Below, piece after piece: positions 1-34,234 of a DNA stretch of 64,000 nt. Source of the DNA: Lobosporangium transversale (lineage: Eukaryota; Mortierellomycota; Mortierellomycetes; Mortierellales; Mortierellaceae); NCBI RefSeq assembly GCF_002105155.1, contig NW_019029042.1, positions 62,001-126,000 of the forward strand, read 5' to 3'. The translations under genes and the position numbers were made by a program. Below the pieces are notes generated by a model that searched no databases, was not told the origin of the DNA, and was given only the letters and a program-made list of their open reading frames with translations. Each line of letters begins with the position of its first letter. Position 1 is the stretch's first letter.

Positions 1-1
1 T

Positions 2-3000
2 GGGCCTCGCTGCGAAGAAAAAACGCGTGCCTATAGGGACCGAGATGCTAAGCGTACAGCAGCGGATGCAAAACTCGATACGCTCATAGCCAACATGGAA
101 ACCAAGTCCAATGAAGGCAAATGGGAATCTCGAAGCCATATGATTGCCATTAAAAAGAATCTTCGACAGCTCTTCACATTCAGTCATAACGAGAAGAGGG
201 AGCTCGCGGCGCCATTCGGTCGATACAATAACTTTGTGATTTGCCATTGTAGAAATGAGGCTGATGTGTGTATTGCCGCCAAATGTACACCAACCAGTAT
301 CGCTGTGTCTGGGGACTCTGACCTTCTCATCTATCCTTCTATAAAAAGAGTTCTTCGTCCAATCCCTCGTCGCCATCACATGTTTGCACTCTATGAGAAA
401 CAAGAGGTCCTGCAAGCCCTTGGGTTTTCAAGGAACAGTCAACTCCTGGTCTATGGCATTATATCCGATAACGATTACACCCCAAATATCCCAACCTTTG
501 GTCTTGCTACAAATGCTGAGATTATCTCCGCGCTCACTGACACTGATGCCGAAAAGTTGACGGTATCATATGTTCGTGAGGTCCATGCCCGTAGCCGTCG
601 AACTCCTGCAGAAGGCCAGTTTGACCATTCAATTAATGTTTTCTTTGGTGGGATCCAAACCCAGGCCTCGCAGCAACCAACCGCTGAAAGATTCCTTCAT
701 TACCATGATAGAATGAGGACTGCGATATCTGCTAGGTACCAGAATAAAAATAATCAACCTCAACCCAGGTAAGCTCCTTCAAATGAACATTTTCCAAAGC
801 ATATACAAAAAAAAAAAGTCATCTAACCCTTGACATTGTTGTTCCTAATTAGATTCTATATCCCTAAACGCGCAAAGCCGAATCGCTATCGGCCTGTTTT
901 CCCTACCCAGAAAAAGGAACTTTCCCCTAAGAAATATGACCTGACCAACTGCAAACAACACGACCGTCCCGTCAGCTCCAGCCGTCAAAGAAAGTCCCCC
1001 AAAAAAAAGGAAAAGGAAAAAAAAGAGGATGACAAAGAAGAGGAGGTTAAGGAGGAAAAGAAGAAAAAAAAGAAGAACAAAGGGAAGGCCAAGTATATCA
1101 GAAAGACTGATAAGACCAGGAAAGTGAAGGAGGCTACTGCCGAGGACCGACGGTTGAAGAGGGCCCACCCCACTGTTGCATTAACTCTGGGCACGTTAAA
1201 GACATGTGTAGTTGCCAAGCTGGACTCTACTTCCGATCCCAATCTCAATCCCGAGCAACTTGCTGCAACAATTCAAGGGCTCATTCAATCATTTATTAAA
1301 ATGTTGAATGAGGCACGGATTCGAGCTTTCTGGGCCTGCGCCTTGTGGATCGATAACCTGCTTACCACTGGGCCATCCAATCCAGCTGATCTCCCACAAC
1401 TCCTAGATGAAGTTCTTGATAGCAGGGACTTTATTTACGGCCTTGCTGCGTTGTTGTATCACGGAGTGATGAGTCCATTATCTAGGTATAGCAGGGAAGT
1501 GAAGAAAAAAGGCGAAGGGAACGTAGCCAAGCCGTCCCAGCTCAAAGCATACGAAAACTTCTATGCAAAGACAGGGCTTGGTCCTTTAAACCAGATCTAT
1601 CCCGATTTGGTGATCAGCAGGTCGTCTCGGATGGTCATGGTCCCTGTTCAAGCAGCGCTAAGATCTCACTATCGGAATGCGCAGGTAAATATAATATTAT
1701 AATATTTTGAGGTTATCTTATAATATGTTTATAGAAATGTTCCTAATCATTTCTTCAATATAATGTCTAGTTTGACATAGATATTCCAGGCGATGGAAGA
1801 AGTTCCATCCAATTCTTTTTTGAGCAAAATGCAACTGCCAAAAAATATCTGGATTTTCCTACGTCTGCTTTCTCGCCTCGGTCTCTTTGCCTAACGGAAG
1901 CCTGTCTCCTGGATATATTATGGTCCAACCCAACAGTTCGAGAGGAAATAGCCCAATTGTTGGAACTAAACATGAGTACCAAGGGGGCTGCAGAGGACAA
2001 GATCCTTAACCACAAGGGGATATTGTTGCAGGAGCTGTTTTCCTTGAAAGGATACAAGGACGTTGGACTGCAATCTGATGATGACCCTAGAAGGAAACTA
2101 CGGACATCGTTCTTTACAAACGGCCTTACCCTAACACTTCTTGCCTATGACACATCGAAGCAAAAAAGAGGTAGAGGTTCGCAAGCTGCCCAACCTTCGG
2201 ATACTCAAAGATCTCAAGCAGTCCAGGCTTCTTCAAGTGCTCAGCAGGGATCCTCGTCTTCAGGCCATGGTGCAGGTGATGGTGGTGATGATGGAGACGA
2301 CGACGGGAATGAAGATGACGATATCTTGCTGGGTATCAGCGATATTGACTTGCTGGAAGTTGATGAACCATTCTTAGATGGCGACGAGGGAGAAGAAGCA
2401 GCTGAAGAAGGTACATCGAGCACAAATCCACTGTCCCCGGTGAGTCCCAGTCCCCGGCGTGAGATCAACTGGAAGCAGAGATCCCGTCTCCTCGAGAATG
2501 TAGAAGTTAAATATGACACCCAGGCAGCATGCCCTCCCCCCGAAAGTACCATTATCATTGGGATCGATCCAGGCGAGAGGTACTCGATGACAATTGCAAA
2601 GTTGGATCCAAGGAAACCTAACGAACGTGAGATCCTTCGGATTTCTAGAGCGTACCTTTACAAACCATCCAAGAAGTTTCAGGGCGAGCTAGAGAGGCGA
2701 AAGCTTAGAAGAGGAATTACAGAGATTGAAAGCCATTGTAGGTTATCATGAATACTACACATCTGCCAAGTGTCCACGACCTCACTGTGACAGTATATTG
2801 GAGAATGTTCCTTTTCGATCCAAGTACTGTCGAAATTGTAAAGCATACTTTGATCGAGATGCTGTTGGTGCTGAGAACATCGCAAGGGTCTGTGAGTCGC
2901 AGATAAGAGAGCAAAAACGACCTGCAAAATATATGCCGCCGGACGGAGGAACTCAAGGCCAAGCTTCTAGCGGTAGTGGCGGCGGTGGAGGTAGTGGTGG

Positions 3001-3199
3001 CAGTGGTGGTGGTAGTAGCAGATCCACAAAAAGGAAATTTTCAGATGAAGGAGGAGGAGGAGTAGAGGGATCAAGACCACCGAAAGGACCTTTGCTGGGT
3101 CCAGGAGGAGGGGAGAGACAAGCCGGCAACAACAGTAGGACACAATCTACTACAAACATGACTAGGTCCAGAAAGGCCTTCGTCTTAAAAAAATTGTAA
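2..3199 (+). pseudogene. XPG/FEN-like nuclease domain fused to TnpB/Fanzor-like RuvC and zinc finger (5' partial, broken)
   Basis: The reading frame is open from the left edge. Exons by splice phase are <2-768, 853-1684 and 1771 to about 2740. Exon 1 shows an XPG-I-like core: NEADVCIAA, then SGDSDLLIYPS, then an H2TH-like GIISDNDYTPNIPTFG. Exon 2 has a Lys/Glu-rich linker (about 1000-1130) and a helical region. Exon 3 ends in a RuvC-I-like IIIGIDPGERYSMTIAKLD at about 2557-2612. A second frame (2726-3199) carries a TnpB-type four-Cys zinc finger preceded by EYYTSAKC, and then the RuvC-III-like FDRDAVGAENIA. Only about 40 residues separate RuvC-I from the zinc finger, and the frame changes between them, so the part that should hold the RuvC-II glutamate is absent. 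I infer an inactivating internal deletion. A Gly/Ser-rich tail follows. A further exon (3285-3528) is possible in phase but overlaps the next gene. Family members are RNA-guided nucleases of mobile elements; activity here is unlikely. Confidence 0.72.
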
Positions 3200-3461
3200 G
3201 TATTGGCTTGATAGTACTTTTTTTTCTTGGTTAATTTATTTATTTATTTATTTCTGTGTTCTAATACATTTCTTTTTACAATAGATGGAATGTCTCGTTT
3301 TTTAATGGGACGGACTATAAACAGATTGGCGGCGCTGTCTATGAAAAAAATCGTCAACGCGTCGTAATATCAAGCCACAGTGACTGCTCCGTTTCACTAG
3401 GCCTCTTTAATTCATTCTCATTACCCTCCCTGTCAAAGTTGCAAAGGGCAGGAACATTTCC

Positions 3462-6284
3462 ATGTCTTACATCACACCAGAGCCAATTGCGGTGTCCATG
3501 GATACCAGTCCAGAGACAACTCCTCTAGCAGACACTCCCTTGGCTCCCAGAAATGTCACAAATAATGGCTCTACCTCTTCAGCAGCTGTTGGGGATAGCA
3601 AGCCTGCACTTGCAGAACAAATACATGAGCCTGCATCTTCAACCTTGAATCCTACATCTGTTTCTACGTCCACCTCTACCTCTATATCTGTAGTATATAA
3701 TACTTCTTCCACATCACTACCAAACTTACAAATCCGGGAATCATCATCGACACCCACAAATGTAATTAATGTTGGTGCTAGTAGTGCCGACCCTGAAAGT
3801 AGCACTACAGCATCCCACCCTAGACATGATATCAACTCAACTAGCGCGTTGGATAGAGGCCCACTCGGTTTAACACCTGATGAGGAACAATGGGTTAAAG
3901 AAAAGATGGAATATGCGCTATACGAGTAAGCTATAGGAGGACACTAACTAGGAGCTGTTTCATTCATTCGAAAAACAAAAAAAAAAAAAAAAAAAAAAAG
4001 AAAGCCTTATGGAATGAATTCATAAATGCCTATTCACTCAATATTTTATTTTACTTTACTTTTAATTTTTATTTTGTTTTTTCTCTTGAAATTTAGCCTT
4101 CAGGCACTAGCATTGGCAATCAAACGTTATAGATGGCAATTGACGCAGGTACCAAAGGATATCACTCGGTTGGAGAGCTTAAAGGAGAGGTATATGGGAG
4201 CCCCATTCGATTTTTTGAAATTACTTAAGAACAAGGTACGGTGTTTGTTTTTCAGTAGGCTTTTTCAACAAAAGAAAATGATAATAATAATAATAATAAA
4301 AGTCATTTTTTTTATCTTCCATCCGCTTAAAAACATTTGTACGTTAGGAGTTCCGCTATCCTGAGGGGCAAAAGACCTTACCGGCACCGTCAATAGAATG
4401 GACAAAATATCAATTTCCTCCAGCAAAACCTGTTTCACCATCAAAGCCTCCAAGAGCAACTTATCTGGTACACAAAAAAAGTCTATCTGTTTATCTGCTG
4501 AAATAGTTGAGGTCTGATTTGTTAACTTGGCTTTATATTTTCTATCTTTTTGATTCTGCTCCTCTAGAGCCCTTTATCATATGAATCAAATCCTGATAGA
4601 GATAACAGCAGGACACTGTCAATAGGACGGACTAATATCCGTTCCAAAGCGGAATCACCATCTCAGGAACGTATTCAAGTTGTAAAAGAGACTGCAAAAA
4701 ACCTCGGTATCAACGTCATCCGCCCTTACCAACCACAGCAATACAACTATCATGACTCGAGTCAGGATCGAATAGATATCAATGGCGGAACAGGAGACAC
4801 GGATGGCGTACTATCGTCGAAGCAAACTTCACACGAAGCAAGGCAACTTGGCTATGGTCATGGTCAATTTCCGGGAGCTCATGATATGGAGGGAATGGGT
4901 CACTCTGATTTGAGTCAATCAAATAATACTTCCTTAGGTCATCGTTCAGAAGGCGCACTTGTGACACCATCTGCTACATACAGTACGATACAGCTTCCTC
5001 AACCTCATCATCAGCACCATTTACATCAATCTGTTTGTCCCCAAACACCTGTTGCTGGACCCTCGAATCAAACCATTGATCATAATCCAGGAGTTCGCAC
5101 GATCCCTCGACCGATTCAACCTAAAGACTTTGGGGCAAACGCCAATATCACTTATAATCATATGAGTGGAAGTGTCGATGTTCATTCAGGGAACACTACA
5201 ATCGCCACCAAACCGAGGGGGGCGTCACGGGAAGGTAGTGCTCGCGAAGAGACGCCGAAACCACCTTTGTATAATATCCCGTGGAGTGACGAGGAGCAGC
5301 AGCAGCTGGAGCGGTTATTGGAAATCTATCCGGATGAACCTGTGGCGGCCCAACGTTTCCAAAAGATTTCAGCAGCCATGGGAACTAGAACACCAAAACA
5401 GGTCGCAAGTCGTGTTCAAAAATACTTTATCAAGCTTGTCAAGGCTGGGTTGGAGGCGCCAGGGCGAATGAATTTCTCGCTCGAGACAAAGTCAAAAGCT
5501 AAGCAAGCAGGGGTATCCTCAGCCGCCAAAGGGAAAAAACGAAAAGATGTTCAGGATGAAGGCAACGAAGCTAGTCGTAACAAGCCTACACGTCCAAAAA
5601 AGAAAGACGCGGATGCGGGGGGAGCTACAGCAACAGGATTTGGATTAGGATTAGCACCAGCATCAGGCTCAGGCTCAGGCTCAGGGTCAGGGTCAGGGTC
5701 AGGCGCAGCGCCGAAAAAGAAAAAGAAGGCCAAGTCACTACTAGGATCTGGATTCGGGCGGACATCTGGCACGCAGTATCTGACTTACAATCCTGCACCG
5801 ACTGTGTATATGAGCGAAGGTGATGATGACGAAGATATACAGGACATGCTCGGTGTTGCCAGTAGCAATAATGCTCTTTTACATAGAAGCAGTTCACTGC
5901 AAGGTAGTCCCGATGGTGGAGTGGCTAGTCACTTGGGATACTCTGTGAGTTTTTTTTTATGATTTATGTATCAGGTGACACGATGACCGTACTTAAAAAC
6001 TCCAATCTAATATCTTTTCCTCATTCTCTATTATTTCATTGTTATCTCAGTGTGATTCGTGTGGAGTGGAGCCAATCCTTGGGATTCGATATTCATGTAT
6101 AGACTGTGAGGAGCTTGGAGGAACTGATCTGTGCGGACCATGCTACAACTCTGGCACTTATCAGAACAAAATGCACCTGTTGTCCCATCGATTTCAGCCT
6201 ATTGATTCTTCAGAGCCACCAGCTTACAATAACAACTATGCATCTTCGAGTGCCTCAGGATCTGGAATTGCCATCAGCTCCTGA
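3462..6284 (+). CDS. ZZZ3: ZZZ3-like SANT/Myb and ZZ zinc-finger chromatin protein
   Basis: Exons 3462-3925, 4097-4235, 4348-4467, 4568-5944 and 6051-6284 join in phase to a 777-residue protein. A Ser/Thr-rich N-terminus (about 1-130) leads into a helical segment around residues 140-200. A SANT/Myb domain lies near 472-535; its end [16 protein letters not shown] and the motif [11 protein letters not shown] closely resemble animal ZZZ3. A ZZ-type zinc finger ([16 protein letters not shown] and following Cys pairs) is encoded by the last exon at about residues 700-750, again in the ZZZ3 order. In animals ZZZ3 is a subunit of the ATAC acetyltransferase complex and its ZZ finger reads histone H3; by homology this is a nuclear chromatin reader. 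The middle is low complexity, with a Gly-Ser run encoded by a hexanucleotide repeat (about 5661-5705). Identification is strong; the complex it joins in fungi is inference. Confidence 0.88.
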
Positions 6285-31385: not shown

Positions 31386-32219
31386 CATTCTTCGCGAATG
31401 AGCAACACATTCATTCGGGATCGAATATATGCATGAAGAGAACAAGAGGGACAGGGGGCATTCACCATACCACCACGGGATATTTTTTTTTTATATTAAT
31501 TCTTATTATTATATATATATAATATATAATTACATGTTCATAATATTCATAAAATATATATAACATTTATAATTGTATAATTGCATCCGTCTTATTCTAT
31601 TCTACGATTATATTTTCCCGCCAATTTTTTTTTTCATTTCCCAGATGAAGTCAACCGATTACACAAGACAATTGAAGATAAAATAAGAAAAAAGGATATA
31701 TATAAAATAAGCAACAAAGAGAGAGAGAAAGAAAGAGAGAGAGCATGGGAGACAGAGATAGAGAGAGTGTCAATGCTAATAGCTCCTTTCTTGCTACTAT
31801 CCTCTTTCCTCTCAGTGTCATTTTTAAAACTTTAAAAAACCCATAGAAAAATAGATTCATAGCCATAATAATCTTTTTTAAAAAAAAAAAAAAAAAAGAA
31901 AACAGAGAAATAAGTGTGATCGTAAGAATGGTTTTACCACAGTCAACATGAGTTGAAGTCGTTTGCAAAATTGCATGAATGGTGTGCATGTGTCCACAAC
32001 GTTATCTGGTCTTAATATGCATACAAGTTTTTTTTCTTTCTTTTCCTCTTTGTTGGATGCTTAATGTTCGTTGTTCAACGTGTCAAGGTTCAACATCTGG
32101 TGTTAAATGTCAATGCAGATTGGAAAGATAGCTTTGATAAGCAAAGTGGGTAGTAAAGTAGTAAAGAAGAAAGAAGAAAGGACAAGTCCTTTTTTTTTTT
32201 TTTTTTTTTTTTTTTTCTC
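28861..32219. other. Gene-poor, simple-repeat-rich stretch
   Basis: Over 3 kb without a gene I can support. It contains T or A homopolymers (about 30797-30822, 30955-30986, 31350-31385, 31880-31896, 32190-32216), AT dinucleotide tracts (about 29938-29954 and 31494-31530) and GAGA/GAAA-rich stretches (about 31716-31770). The frames present are low complexity. Further decayed piggyBac sequence may extend to about 28935. Confidence 0.6.
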
Positions 32220-33000
32220 TTCTTCTTTCCTTCTTTCCTTCCTTCCTTCCTTCCTTCCTTCCTTCCTTCCTTCCTTCCTTCCTTCCTTCCTTCCTGTTTA
32301 AAATCAGTGTACCGGATAGACTACAGAACACAATACAATACAAAGGTTCCTTCATTTTCTCATTTTCCTTTTCTTCCTCTTTTTCTTTTTCTTCTTCTTC
32401 TTTCCACATTCCATCTTTATTTTCACTTCATCACTGCCTTTCCTTCCTTCCTTCCTTATCCGCAATCCACTCTTTTTTGTTTATTTCTTCTTTCTGTTTT
32501 TCTAATGTGCCACTTGTACGTTATCTCATAGTCTTATTTCCGTCCTTACTTTGCTTCCTTGTCTCCCCTTTAGCAATCAACTCTTATATTCTTCATTGGA
32601 CCCTATCTTCCATTCACCTATTTTCGATCCTATTTCTCAACAGACACATTCTTCTTCTTCATTTCATTTTCCACTTCTTTTCATTCCTTTGTCCACTAGC
32701 TCCTTCTTTGTCCTTGGTTCTTGGCCACTACAGACATTACATTTCTTTGTGGTTAAAATTGTCTATCATCACCATCATCATCCATTTCTTTTCTTCACTT
32801 TTCTCTTCTTTTCTCTTCTCCCTTTTCTCTTTTCTCTTCTCCTCTTTTCTACTCTTCTCTCAAGTTATTTTATTTTATTTTATTTTTTCTTAAAAAAAAA
32901 AAAAACACATTATTGTTATTGTTGAACTGACCACAATATCAACACCGTTCACGAATTCACCTCTTACTTCCTTCAGATCAGCAGACGTAGACGTCTTTCC
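32220..33000. repeat. (TTCC)n microsatellite and pyrimidine-rich leader
   Basis: A pure (TTCC)n run spans about 32235-32295. The following about 600 bp is strongly pyrimidine-rich on the plus strand (TTCTTC, TTCCTTCC and CTTTTC words, to about 32880). It sits directly upstream of the C2H2 gene and is probably its promoter or 5' leader. Frames through it are compositional artefacts. Confidence 0.75.
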
Positions 33001-33100
33001 TTTTTTCTTTTTTCTTTATCATAACTTAACCAAGGTGATAACGAGAAAAGTGTATCATCAACTTGTAAAAAAAAAAAAAAAAAAAAAAAGTAAAGAGAGA

Positions 33101-34234
33101 ATGGAGGACATCAACACCCAATCCCCAGCTCAGACTGGTTCTGTCTCGCCATTTCAACCACAATCACAACCACAGAAACAACCACAGCCATATATCCATG
33201 CCCACCCACAACAATCACAATCTCTCAACCAGACATCCATATCTTATAGCCCTCCTTCTCTTCCCCCTCCACCATCTATCACTCCCATCTTCTCACACTT
33301 GTCCTCACCTTCATTACCTTCCCCTCCTGTATCTGCACTCTCATCCAAACTTGTCACACCAGATCACCTCTCCCATCCAATATCTTCAACACTCTCCACA
33401 CCAGCATCAAAGCCCAAAACTCTGTCATCAACTACGTTTTCGTCTGCAAATAACCATCATCAGAACAGCACACTTCGTCAAGACGTTCAACAGCACTCTG
33501 AAGCCATGGACGTGGATGAGTTCAGATCCCAAGATCAAAAGAGAAATGATGCTATACAACCTACTCTAAAACAACATCCTCACCACTTACAACTCCACAA
33601 AATCCTTGATGACGATGATGCAGATGAGCTTACGAGCCTATCATCTTCACTATCCATGAATAGTGAGAATGATGCCTTCAGCAGAGTTCTCGACCCAACG
33701 CGCCGCGGCCCTTCTACGACTTCACTGGCTCGAAAACGTCCGTCCGTCGCCGAATCTCATTCGGATTCTGAATCGCAATTCGATTCGACCGTAGAATCCC
33801 ATCCTAATTCAGATTCAGAATCAGATCCTGATCTAGAGTCCAAACCTTCGTCTCCGAGGGAGCTCAAGTTTCTGGCGCACAGTCAACCCAATGTTACGAC
33901 CGCCGTCAAAACCTCGTCGAACGATGTCCGGAGGAAGAGTCTACAGCATCTAGCACATCGTCAAGACCACACCAATACTGTTGACTCGACTCAGTCCATG
34001 AGCATAGATAATTACAGCCAAAATCCTCATCACCATCACCGACGAAACCACCATGATCTGGTTTTGTATCATGATCATCCTTTGCAGGGTCTAGATGTGT
34101 TGGCCACGGCCGCACGACAGATGCCGCGTCGGGAAGTCCCCTTTGAAAACACTGCTTCTCTCCAAGATGACTCGAATGCAAGCGAGAGTGAAGGGTAGGC
34201 GCATACATAAGACACTTTGCCCAGGTGAAATGGG

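Follow-up and report, generated by a model that had tools for sequence, protein, structure and literature searches.

Location and structure of the gene

The window analysed here, i.e., the whole stretch of 64,000 nucleotides at C89:62001-126000 of the Lobosporangium transversale genome, opens inside a transposable element whose gene couples two nucleases, an N-terminal one of the FEN/EXO1/XPG type and a C-terminal RuvC module of the TnpB/Fanzor type. The genome searched was the 42.7-Mb assembly of 127 contigs. A first-pass annotation of the window had noticed in-phase introns, the SGDSDLL motif, the NDY region, GIDPG and a zinc finger, all of which are present as described, and had regarded the copy as damaged, as is borne out by an internal deletion at 2733/2734. 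The element comprises the following features (window positions):

1..3319, + strand, 3'-terminal portion of a transposable element of subfamily A (copy alignment, left-end and right-end matches)
1..768, + strand, exon 1, cut on its 5' side where the window begins; nuclease domain of the FEN/EXO1/XPG type
257..265, + strand, E-A-D motif at FEN-type positions
314..322, + strand, DSD motif of SGDSDLL (aspartate codons 314-316 and 320-322)
473..475, + strand, NDY aspartate, within DNDYTPNIPTFG
769..852, + strand, intron 1, GTAAGC...TTAG, frame preserved; junction also in NCBI model P0001
853..1684, + strand, exon 2, lysine-rich linker and following region
1685..1770, + strand, intron 2, GTAAAT...CTAG, GT-AG, in phase; same place in subfamily B
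1771..2733, + strand, exon 3, shortened by the deletion, holds RuvC-I
2560..2574, + strand, RuvC-I GIDPG, with the Fanzor DPG signature
2733..2734, + strand, deletion junction; about 0.56 kb lost, from the end of exon 3 through intron 3 into the first part of exon 4
2734..3195, + strand, what is left of exon 4, with the alternative glutamate (2750-2752), the zinc finger, RuvC-III and a Gly-rich tail
2738..2881, + strand, TNB zinc-finger match with the RuvC-III region at its end (PF07282, E 1.8e-6, ORF residues 16-63)
3196..3284, + strand, putative 3' intron, GTAAGT...ATAG
3307..3319, + strand, right terminus GGGACGGAC followed by TATA (C89:65307-65319)
3316..3319, + strand, TATA, as expected of the target-site duplication in Sailor elements

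The start of the gene (MGIKGLYSYL) lies outside the window, 254 bases to its left, and the window holds only the 3' part. The zinc finger (from 2738) lies in another frame than the GIDPG part, since the deletion at 2733/2734 has thrown the two halves of RuvC out of frame. The full gene, as read in other copies, has four exons and starts with MGIKGLYSYLSRRDLPP, an N-terminus that we take to be typical of FEN1, EXO1, and XPG. Of 13 copies read, L012 (on C51) alone has an unbroken frame from exon 2 onwards. This natural copy codes for 1209 amino acids in four exons separated by three GT-AG introns, and beyond EQKRP its final stretch differs in frame from that of another copy, L013.

Evidence for the fusion

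A second subfamily, B (L024-L026), is found in the same genome. Its nuclease half is 31% identical to that of subfamily A (106/338); the exons and the positions of all three introns coincide between the two subfamilies (with one frame break of L024 read past), as does the phase of intron 1. NCBI model P0001, of subfamily A, has the exon 1/2 and exon 3/4 junctions as placed here and differs at the exon 2/3 junction. In L025 of subfamily B (G000:C41:531200-538200, positions 1186-2721) intron 1 has been lost together with its borders, and the nuclease and exon 2 form one frame of 512 amino acids. Homologues occur in other genera: the proteins of Podila verticillata (P0003, 1260 amino acids) and Mortierella alpina (P0012, 1502 amino acids, with an N-terminal extension) run from the nuclease through RuvC-III in a single model, that of M. 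antarctica (P0011, 1136 amino acids) is a partial fusion homologue, and of two proteins from Benniella one (P0004, 1160 amino acids) stops before the zinc finger and the other (P0005, 643 amino acids) is shortened. Homologue fragments come from Mortierella sp. AD011 and Podila horticola. At the level of sequence, the architecture and its catalytic residues are conserved in four genera.

The exon-1 protein matches the genome 94 times, and 15 of these matches cover the whole 256-residue query at 97-100% identity. When exon-1 loci are merged and paired with TNB matches within 6 kb, 48 of 80 are followed on their own strand by such a match, 0.8-3.0 kb farther on, and any other arrangement is found four times. 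The 32 exon-1 loci and 34 of 82 TNB matches left without a partner fit, as expected, decayed copies and separate Fanzors such as L030, described below. The number of matches, the full-length ones among them and the same-strand pairing mean that the arrangement is not due to chance. Moreover, in a set of seven fused proteins the two halves show correlated divergence (Mantel r 0.91, exact p 0.003), also when P0011, one of a close pair, is left out (r 0.65, p 0.026). An arrangement of unrelated exons brought about by chance or misassembly, for which the damaged state of the window copy speaks and nothing further, has a negligible probability given an order conserved in those 48 loci and in other genera and halves that diverge together.

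Another alternative is that each locus yields two proteins, exon 1 alone giving a free FEN/EXO1-like nuclease and the Fanzor being made separately, so that the fusion would be an artefact of prediction. Retention of intron 1 places a TAA stop at 770-772, directly behind the donor; exon 1 is 1022 nt long in 13/13 copies with both its ends located, the frame breaking later in 12/13; and it has the lowest substitution rate of all exons (5.5 per kb, versus 7.5-11.1 in the others). Against two proteins stand the frame preserved over three introns in subfamilies as distant as A and B, the gene models from other genera that hold both halves, and the uninterrupted frame of L025, and we consider this alternative improbable. 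The first-pass proposal of one gene for a FEN/XPG-type nuclease and a TnpB/Fanzor RuvC module is upheld by the intron places, the single models and the Mantel correlation; homologues with the halves in one gene exist, and matches to both FEN/EXO1/XPG and TnpB/Fanzor were found. The two-nuclease fusion is almost certainly real and old, as judged from sequence comparison.

The EXO1/FEN-like nuclease half

The nuclease half comprises nine FEN-type positions, which we take to be D34, D86, K93, R100, E158, E160 (here D), D179, D181, and D233 in FEN1 numbering, with E-A-D presumably corresponding to E158/E160, DSD to D179/D181, and the NDY aspartate to D233. Among 11 aligned sequences they are invariant in every one that covers them, i.e., the seven metal-binding acids and the gateway Lys/Arg at the corresponding FEN1 positions are kept 9/9; the background invariance is 39 of 334 nuclease columns (columns covered by at least five sequences). 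The spacing of the D, K and R residues is visible in the alignment with 1a76, the first stretch of which is weak. The nearest solved fold is that of EXO1 (16% identity), the average pLDDT of the nuclease part being about 62, and the catalytic domain has the fold of the EXO1/FEN/XPG superfamily.

The protein is not filed under Pfam XPG_I or XPG_I_2 because its scores lie below the cut-off (for XPG_I on the window ORF, E 0.037), and the assignment rests on PDB sequence matches, the fold and the catalytic residues. Of the XPG-I/H2TH-like region named in the first-pass annotation, the XPG-type nuclease thus stands, on these same grounds; the H2TH motif could not be confirmed.

The Fanzor half

The RuvC-I aspartate is present in 8/8 sequences and DPG in 7/8 (DSG in P0005). 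The alternative glutamate, located six residues ahead of the zinc finger, is kept in 7/7 sequences covering it. The zinc cysteines are kept in 7/7 (the first two), 5/5 (the third), and 5/6 (the fourth), and the RuvC-III aspartate in 6/7, the model of P0001 being without that stretch and the tail of P0005 doubtful there. DPG combined with a glutamate at this distance ahead of the zinc finger is given as the molecular fingerprint of Fanzors in PMC10711439, and PMC3627910 gives the pattern D-X(125,275)-[TS][TS]-X-X-C4-X(5,50)-RD. P0003 conforms to it with D1008, TS at 1196-1197, cysteines 1200/1205/1220/1223, and RD at 1229-1230, and the window copy fails its spacing because of its own deletion. 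P0003 also matches PF07282 (6e-8) and the NCBI TnpB model (8.9e-6, under the cut-off of that model). A RuvC profile, A7, which includes a non-fused Fanzor besides the fused proteins, finds in PDB the TnpB-like L79 (9b0l, 3.6e-5) and SpuFz1 (8gkh, 0.0068).

The same genome harbours a separate Fanzor lineage: L030 (G000:C106:390800-395000) is a Fanzor-like gene with the alternative glutamate kept and DLG replacing DPG, and no EXO1-like ORF was noticed within the 4.2 kb fetched.

Copies, damage and selection

Alignment of the 15 copies reveals sharp ends in most of them, the left being TATA-GCCCGTTCC and the right GGGACGGAC-TATA. TATA is found at both ends in 9/15, the remainder lacking an end or having an altered one; no duplication longer than TATA was seen by eye, and the flanks contain no common repeats that would give an empty site. 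The window copy, with its left end at C89:59705, about 2.3 kb left of the window, is about 5.6 kb in size, most other copies being longer. Its deletion junction is identical in 3/15 copies, located at different loci (L009, L014, L018); the other 12 copies lack it. As the junction is shared, the deleted form is a derivative that was itself copied or mobilised, presumably in trans. Frames were read in 13 of the 15 copies, with L017 and L022, in which the start motif was not found, set aside. Exon 2 is frequently frame-shifted, many times in its lysine-rich run, by real decay or homopolymer errors.

Distinct variants were counted in 14 young copies with L012 as the reference. Exon 1 has 24 amino-acid-changing and 14 silent variants and 1 stop (expected ratio 3.29:1), exon 2 has 32, 14, and 1 (3.30:1), exon 3 has 68, 45, and 2 (3.20:1), and exon 4 has 6, 4, and 0 (3.32:1). 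These sequence counts point to purifying selection acting, until recently, on both halves.

Mobility and the probable link to Sailor

No transposase was recognised in the element among ORFs of at least 70 amino acids in two copies, inspected by eye, or among five ORFs of the 5' region compared with Pfam. Its left-end sequence has 117 occurrences in the genome with up to three mismatches (0 for a control), and among the matches listed there are six opposite pairs of left ends about 7 kb apart. One locus, L031 (G000:C37:189820-196920), is 6984 bp long including its TATA sites, has inverted repeats free of mismatches over at least 1200 bp, and codes for a DDE transposase of 607 amino acids, DD88E by motif, with weak matches to Tc3 and DDE_3 below the cut-off. 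The Sailor element of L. transversale is reported in PMC8533490 to be 6979 bp in size with a 607-amino-acid protein and 1362-bp inverted repeats, and the target duplications of the group to be mostly TATA. L031 fits this reported element of the IS630-Tc1-mariner group. Over the terminal 44 nt the nuclease element is, at its left end, 91% identical to L031, and the match of its right end is limited to the outermost part. Since the left end matches L031 and no transposase was recognised inside, the element is probably moved in trans by the Sailor transposase, as far as its sequence indicates, and is called here a Sailor-type non-autonomous carrier. The many copies, the Sailor-type left end and the occurrence in other genera agree with the first-pass view of a mobile-element family in early-diverging fungi, to which the present analysis adds EXO1 as the nearest fold, the Sailor-type left end itself, and the retention of both catalytic sites in relatives.

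Two origins by capture were considered and are not supported for the present form of the element, at the sensitivity of searches that relied on a small number of short conserved patterns: viral capture, as there are no viral-contig relatives of exon 1, the whole protein or the RuvC part, and bacterial capture, as the whole protein has no prokaryote-genome relatives.

The element ends about 143 bases ahead of the likely start codon of a neighbouring gene (window 3462-6284) coding for a protein with a Myb-like domain (PF00249, 2.1e-8) and a ZZ zinc finger (PF00569, 7e-9). Elsewhere, the region 32001-34000 has a strong GC skew (-0.41) and pyrimidine-rich repeats, with CTTC and TTTCTCTTCTTCTCT arrays.

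The right end

The acceptor of the putative 3' intron lies 35 bases before the right end in subfamily A (counted to the last TATA base) and 11 bases in subfamily B, where the counterpart of the intron is found at about 4751-4837 of L024. A transcript with this intron spliced would pass from gene sequence directly into the flanking host DNA, and a guide RNA would, on the sequence, come from that flank.

Relation to known systems

The protein resembles Fanzors (Fz1/Fz2) in its DPG, alternative glutamate, C4 zinc finger, RuvC-III RD, and carriage by a DNA transposon, and differs from them in having an N-terminal EXO1/FEN-type nuclease of about 340 amino acids followed by a lysine-rich linker. Unlike human EXO1, FEN1, XPG, and GEN1, the nuclease half is fused to a Fanzor, remains under the Pfam cut-offs, and is 16% identical to EXO1. 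An extra domain is also found in PpFz1, a Fanzor of the fungus Parasitella parasitica; it lies within RuvC and binds cyclophilin, and the passages concerned with it do not describe it as a nuclease. AcademX transposons encode an Academ transposase and no Fanzor, and their nuclease is, we presume, an XPG nuclease. The present element is like them inasmuch as AcademX, in the relevant passages of PMC10045372, is a group of DNA transposons encoding a nuclease. With Sailor (DD82E) it shares the left end and TATA; unlike Sailor, it has no recognised transposase gene, and its right end matches in the outermost part only.

EXO1, flap and exonuclease are absent from the main texts of PMC3627910, PMC10432273, PMC10711439, and PMC11423790, and FEN1 from those of the last three; TnpB does not occur in the main text of the Sailor paper (PMC8533490), and conversely the name Sailor, which was coined later, is missing from one of the Fanzor papers. 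In the open-licence PMC literature neither the combination of Fanzor with XPG nor that of Fanzor with Mortierella was found. The parts are known; their combination is undescribed in the open-licence literature searched.

Proposed function

We consider it fairly probable, on sequence grounds, that the element is mobilised by Sailor, has one recognised gene, and encodes a protein of about 1160-1260 amino acids composed of an EXO1/FEN nuclease, a basic linker and a Fanzor. It is an established idea that nucleases of the TnpB type cut the empty donor site, whereupon repair restores the element. By analogy, and tentatively, we propose the following course of events, to which we give rather less than an even chance. 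Both halves would be made as one protein; the Fanzor half would draw its guide from the sequence flanking the element on the right and cut the empty donor site left when the element moves; the EXO1-like half would resect the 5' strands of the break so made; and repair, with the sister or the homologous site as template, would then restore the element by copying. The protein could thus be a cut-and-resect enzyme kept by selection, with resection steering repair to homologous copying and so spreading or keeping the element, a suggestion offered with equal reserve.

Several observations weigh against this reading. Resection is proposed because of kinship with EXO1, and that is its single ground. 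Pfam XPG_I/XPG_I_2 matches remain under the curated cut-off (E 0.037, 0.076, 0.15, and 0.0032), and in P0004, P0005, P0011, and P0013 no Pfam XPG model matches at E up to 0.5. On the Fanzor side, neither the half of one protein (E up to 10) nor a four-protein profile (E up to 1) found a TnpB/Fanzor chain in PDB, such chains being reached by profile A7 only. Of the 13 copies read, 12 have a frame break in exon 2 or farther on, several homologues are partial or automatic gene models, and the stop in a retained intron 1 makes a free 340-residue nuclease possible. The expected ratios of variants ignore transition bias, and exon 2 (32 amino-acid-changing, 14 silent) departs from them less. Finally, the right-end RNA fold has a z of -4.2 in the spliced form of A, a form chosen post hoc, -2.0 in unspliced A, -1.1 in spliced B, and +0.6 in unspliced B.

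FEN-type nucleases act on 5' flaps, and the EXO1/FEN-like half might accordingly trim the guide RNA or the displaced strand of an R-loop and have no part in the choice of repair. The domain is fused to an enzyme of an RNA-guided type, and the putative intron just before the right end of both subfamilies makes RNA processing plausible; the nearest solved fold, EXO1, is a DNA exonuclease, and no guide RNA was identified at the right ends in the four folds. Such a role seems unlikely to us. We also hold it rather doubtful that this half serves transposition itself, a role suggested for nucleases of other DNA transposons, where it would process excision gaps or ends on behalf of the Sailor transposase. 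The left end does match the Sailor transposon of the same genome, and in AcademH and AcademX the differing lengths of target duplications are tied to the encoded helicase and nuclease, according to the passages of PMC10045372 that treat them. On the other side, L031 has a transposase and, among its ORFs of at least 120 amino acids, no such nuclease was recognised, so Sailor movement in general should not need one.

Significance

Two-nuclease proteins of a similar kind have been built by hand by genome engineers, and the present one would be available ready-made. Fanzors are eukaryotic relatives of CRISPR-Cas12, and the manner in which they help transposons is unsettled. The element described here links Fanzors to the Sailor transposon group, and a lineage of fusions with both catalytic sets kept over deep divergence offers a direct natural test of whether RNA-guided cutting helps an element to be retained via homologous repair. 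If the proposed cut-and-resect activity is true, the element would be a self-made homing system controlling the outcome of its own repair.
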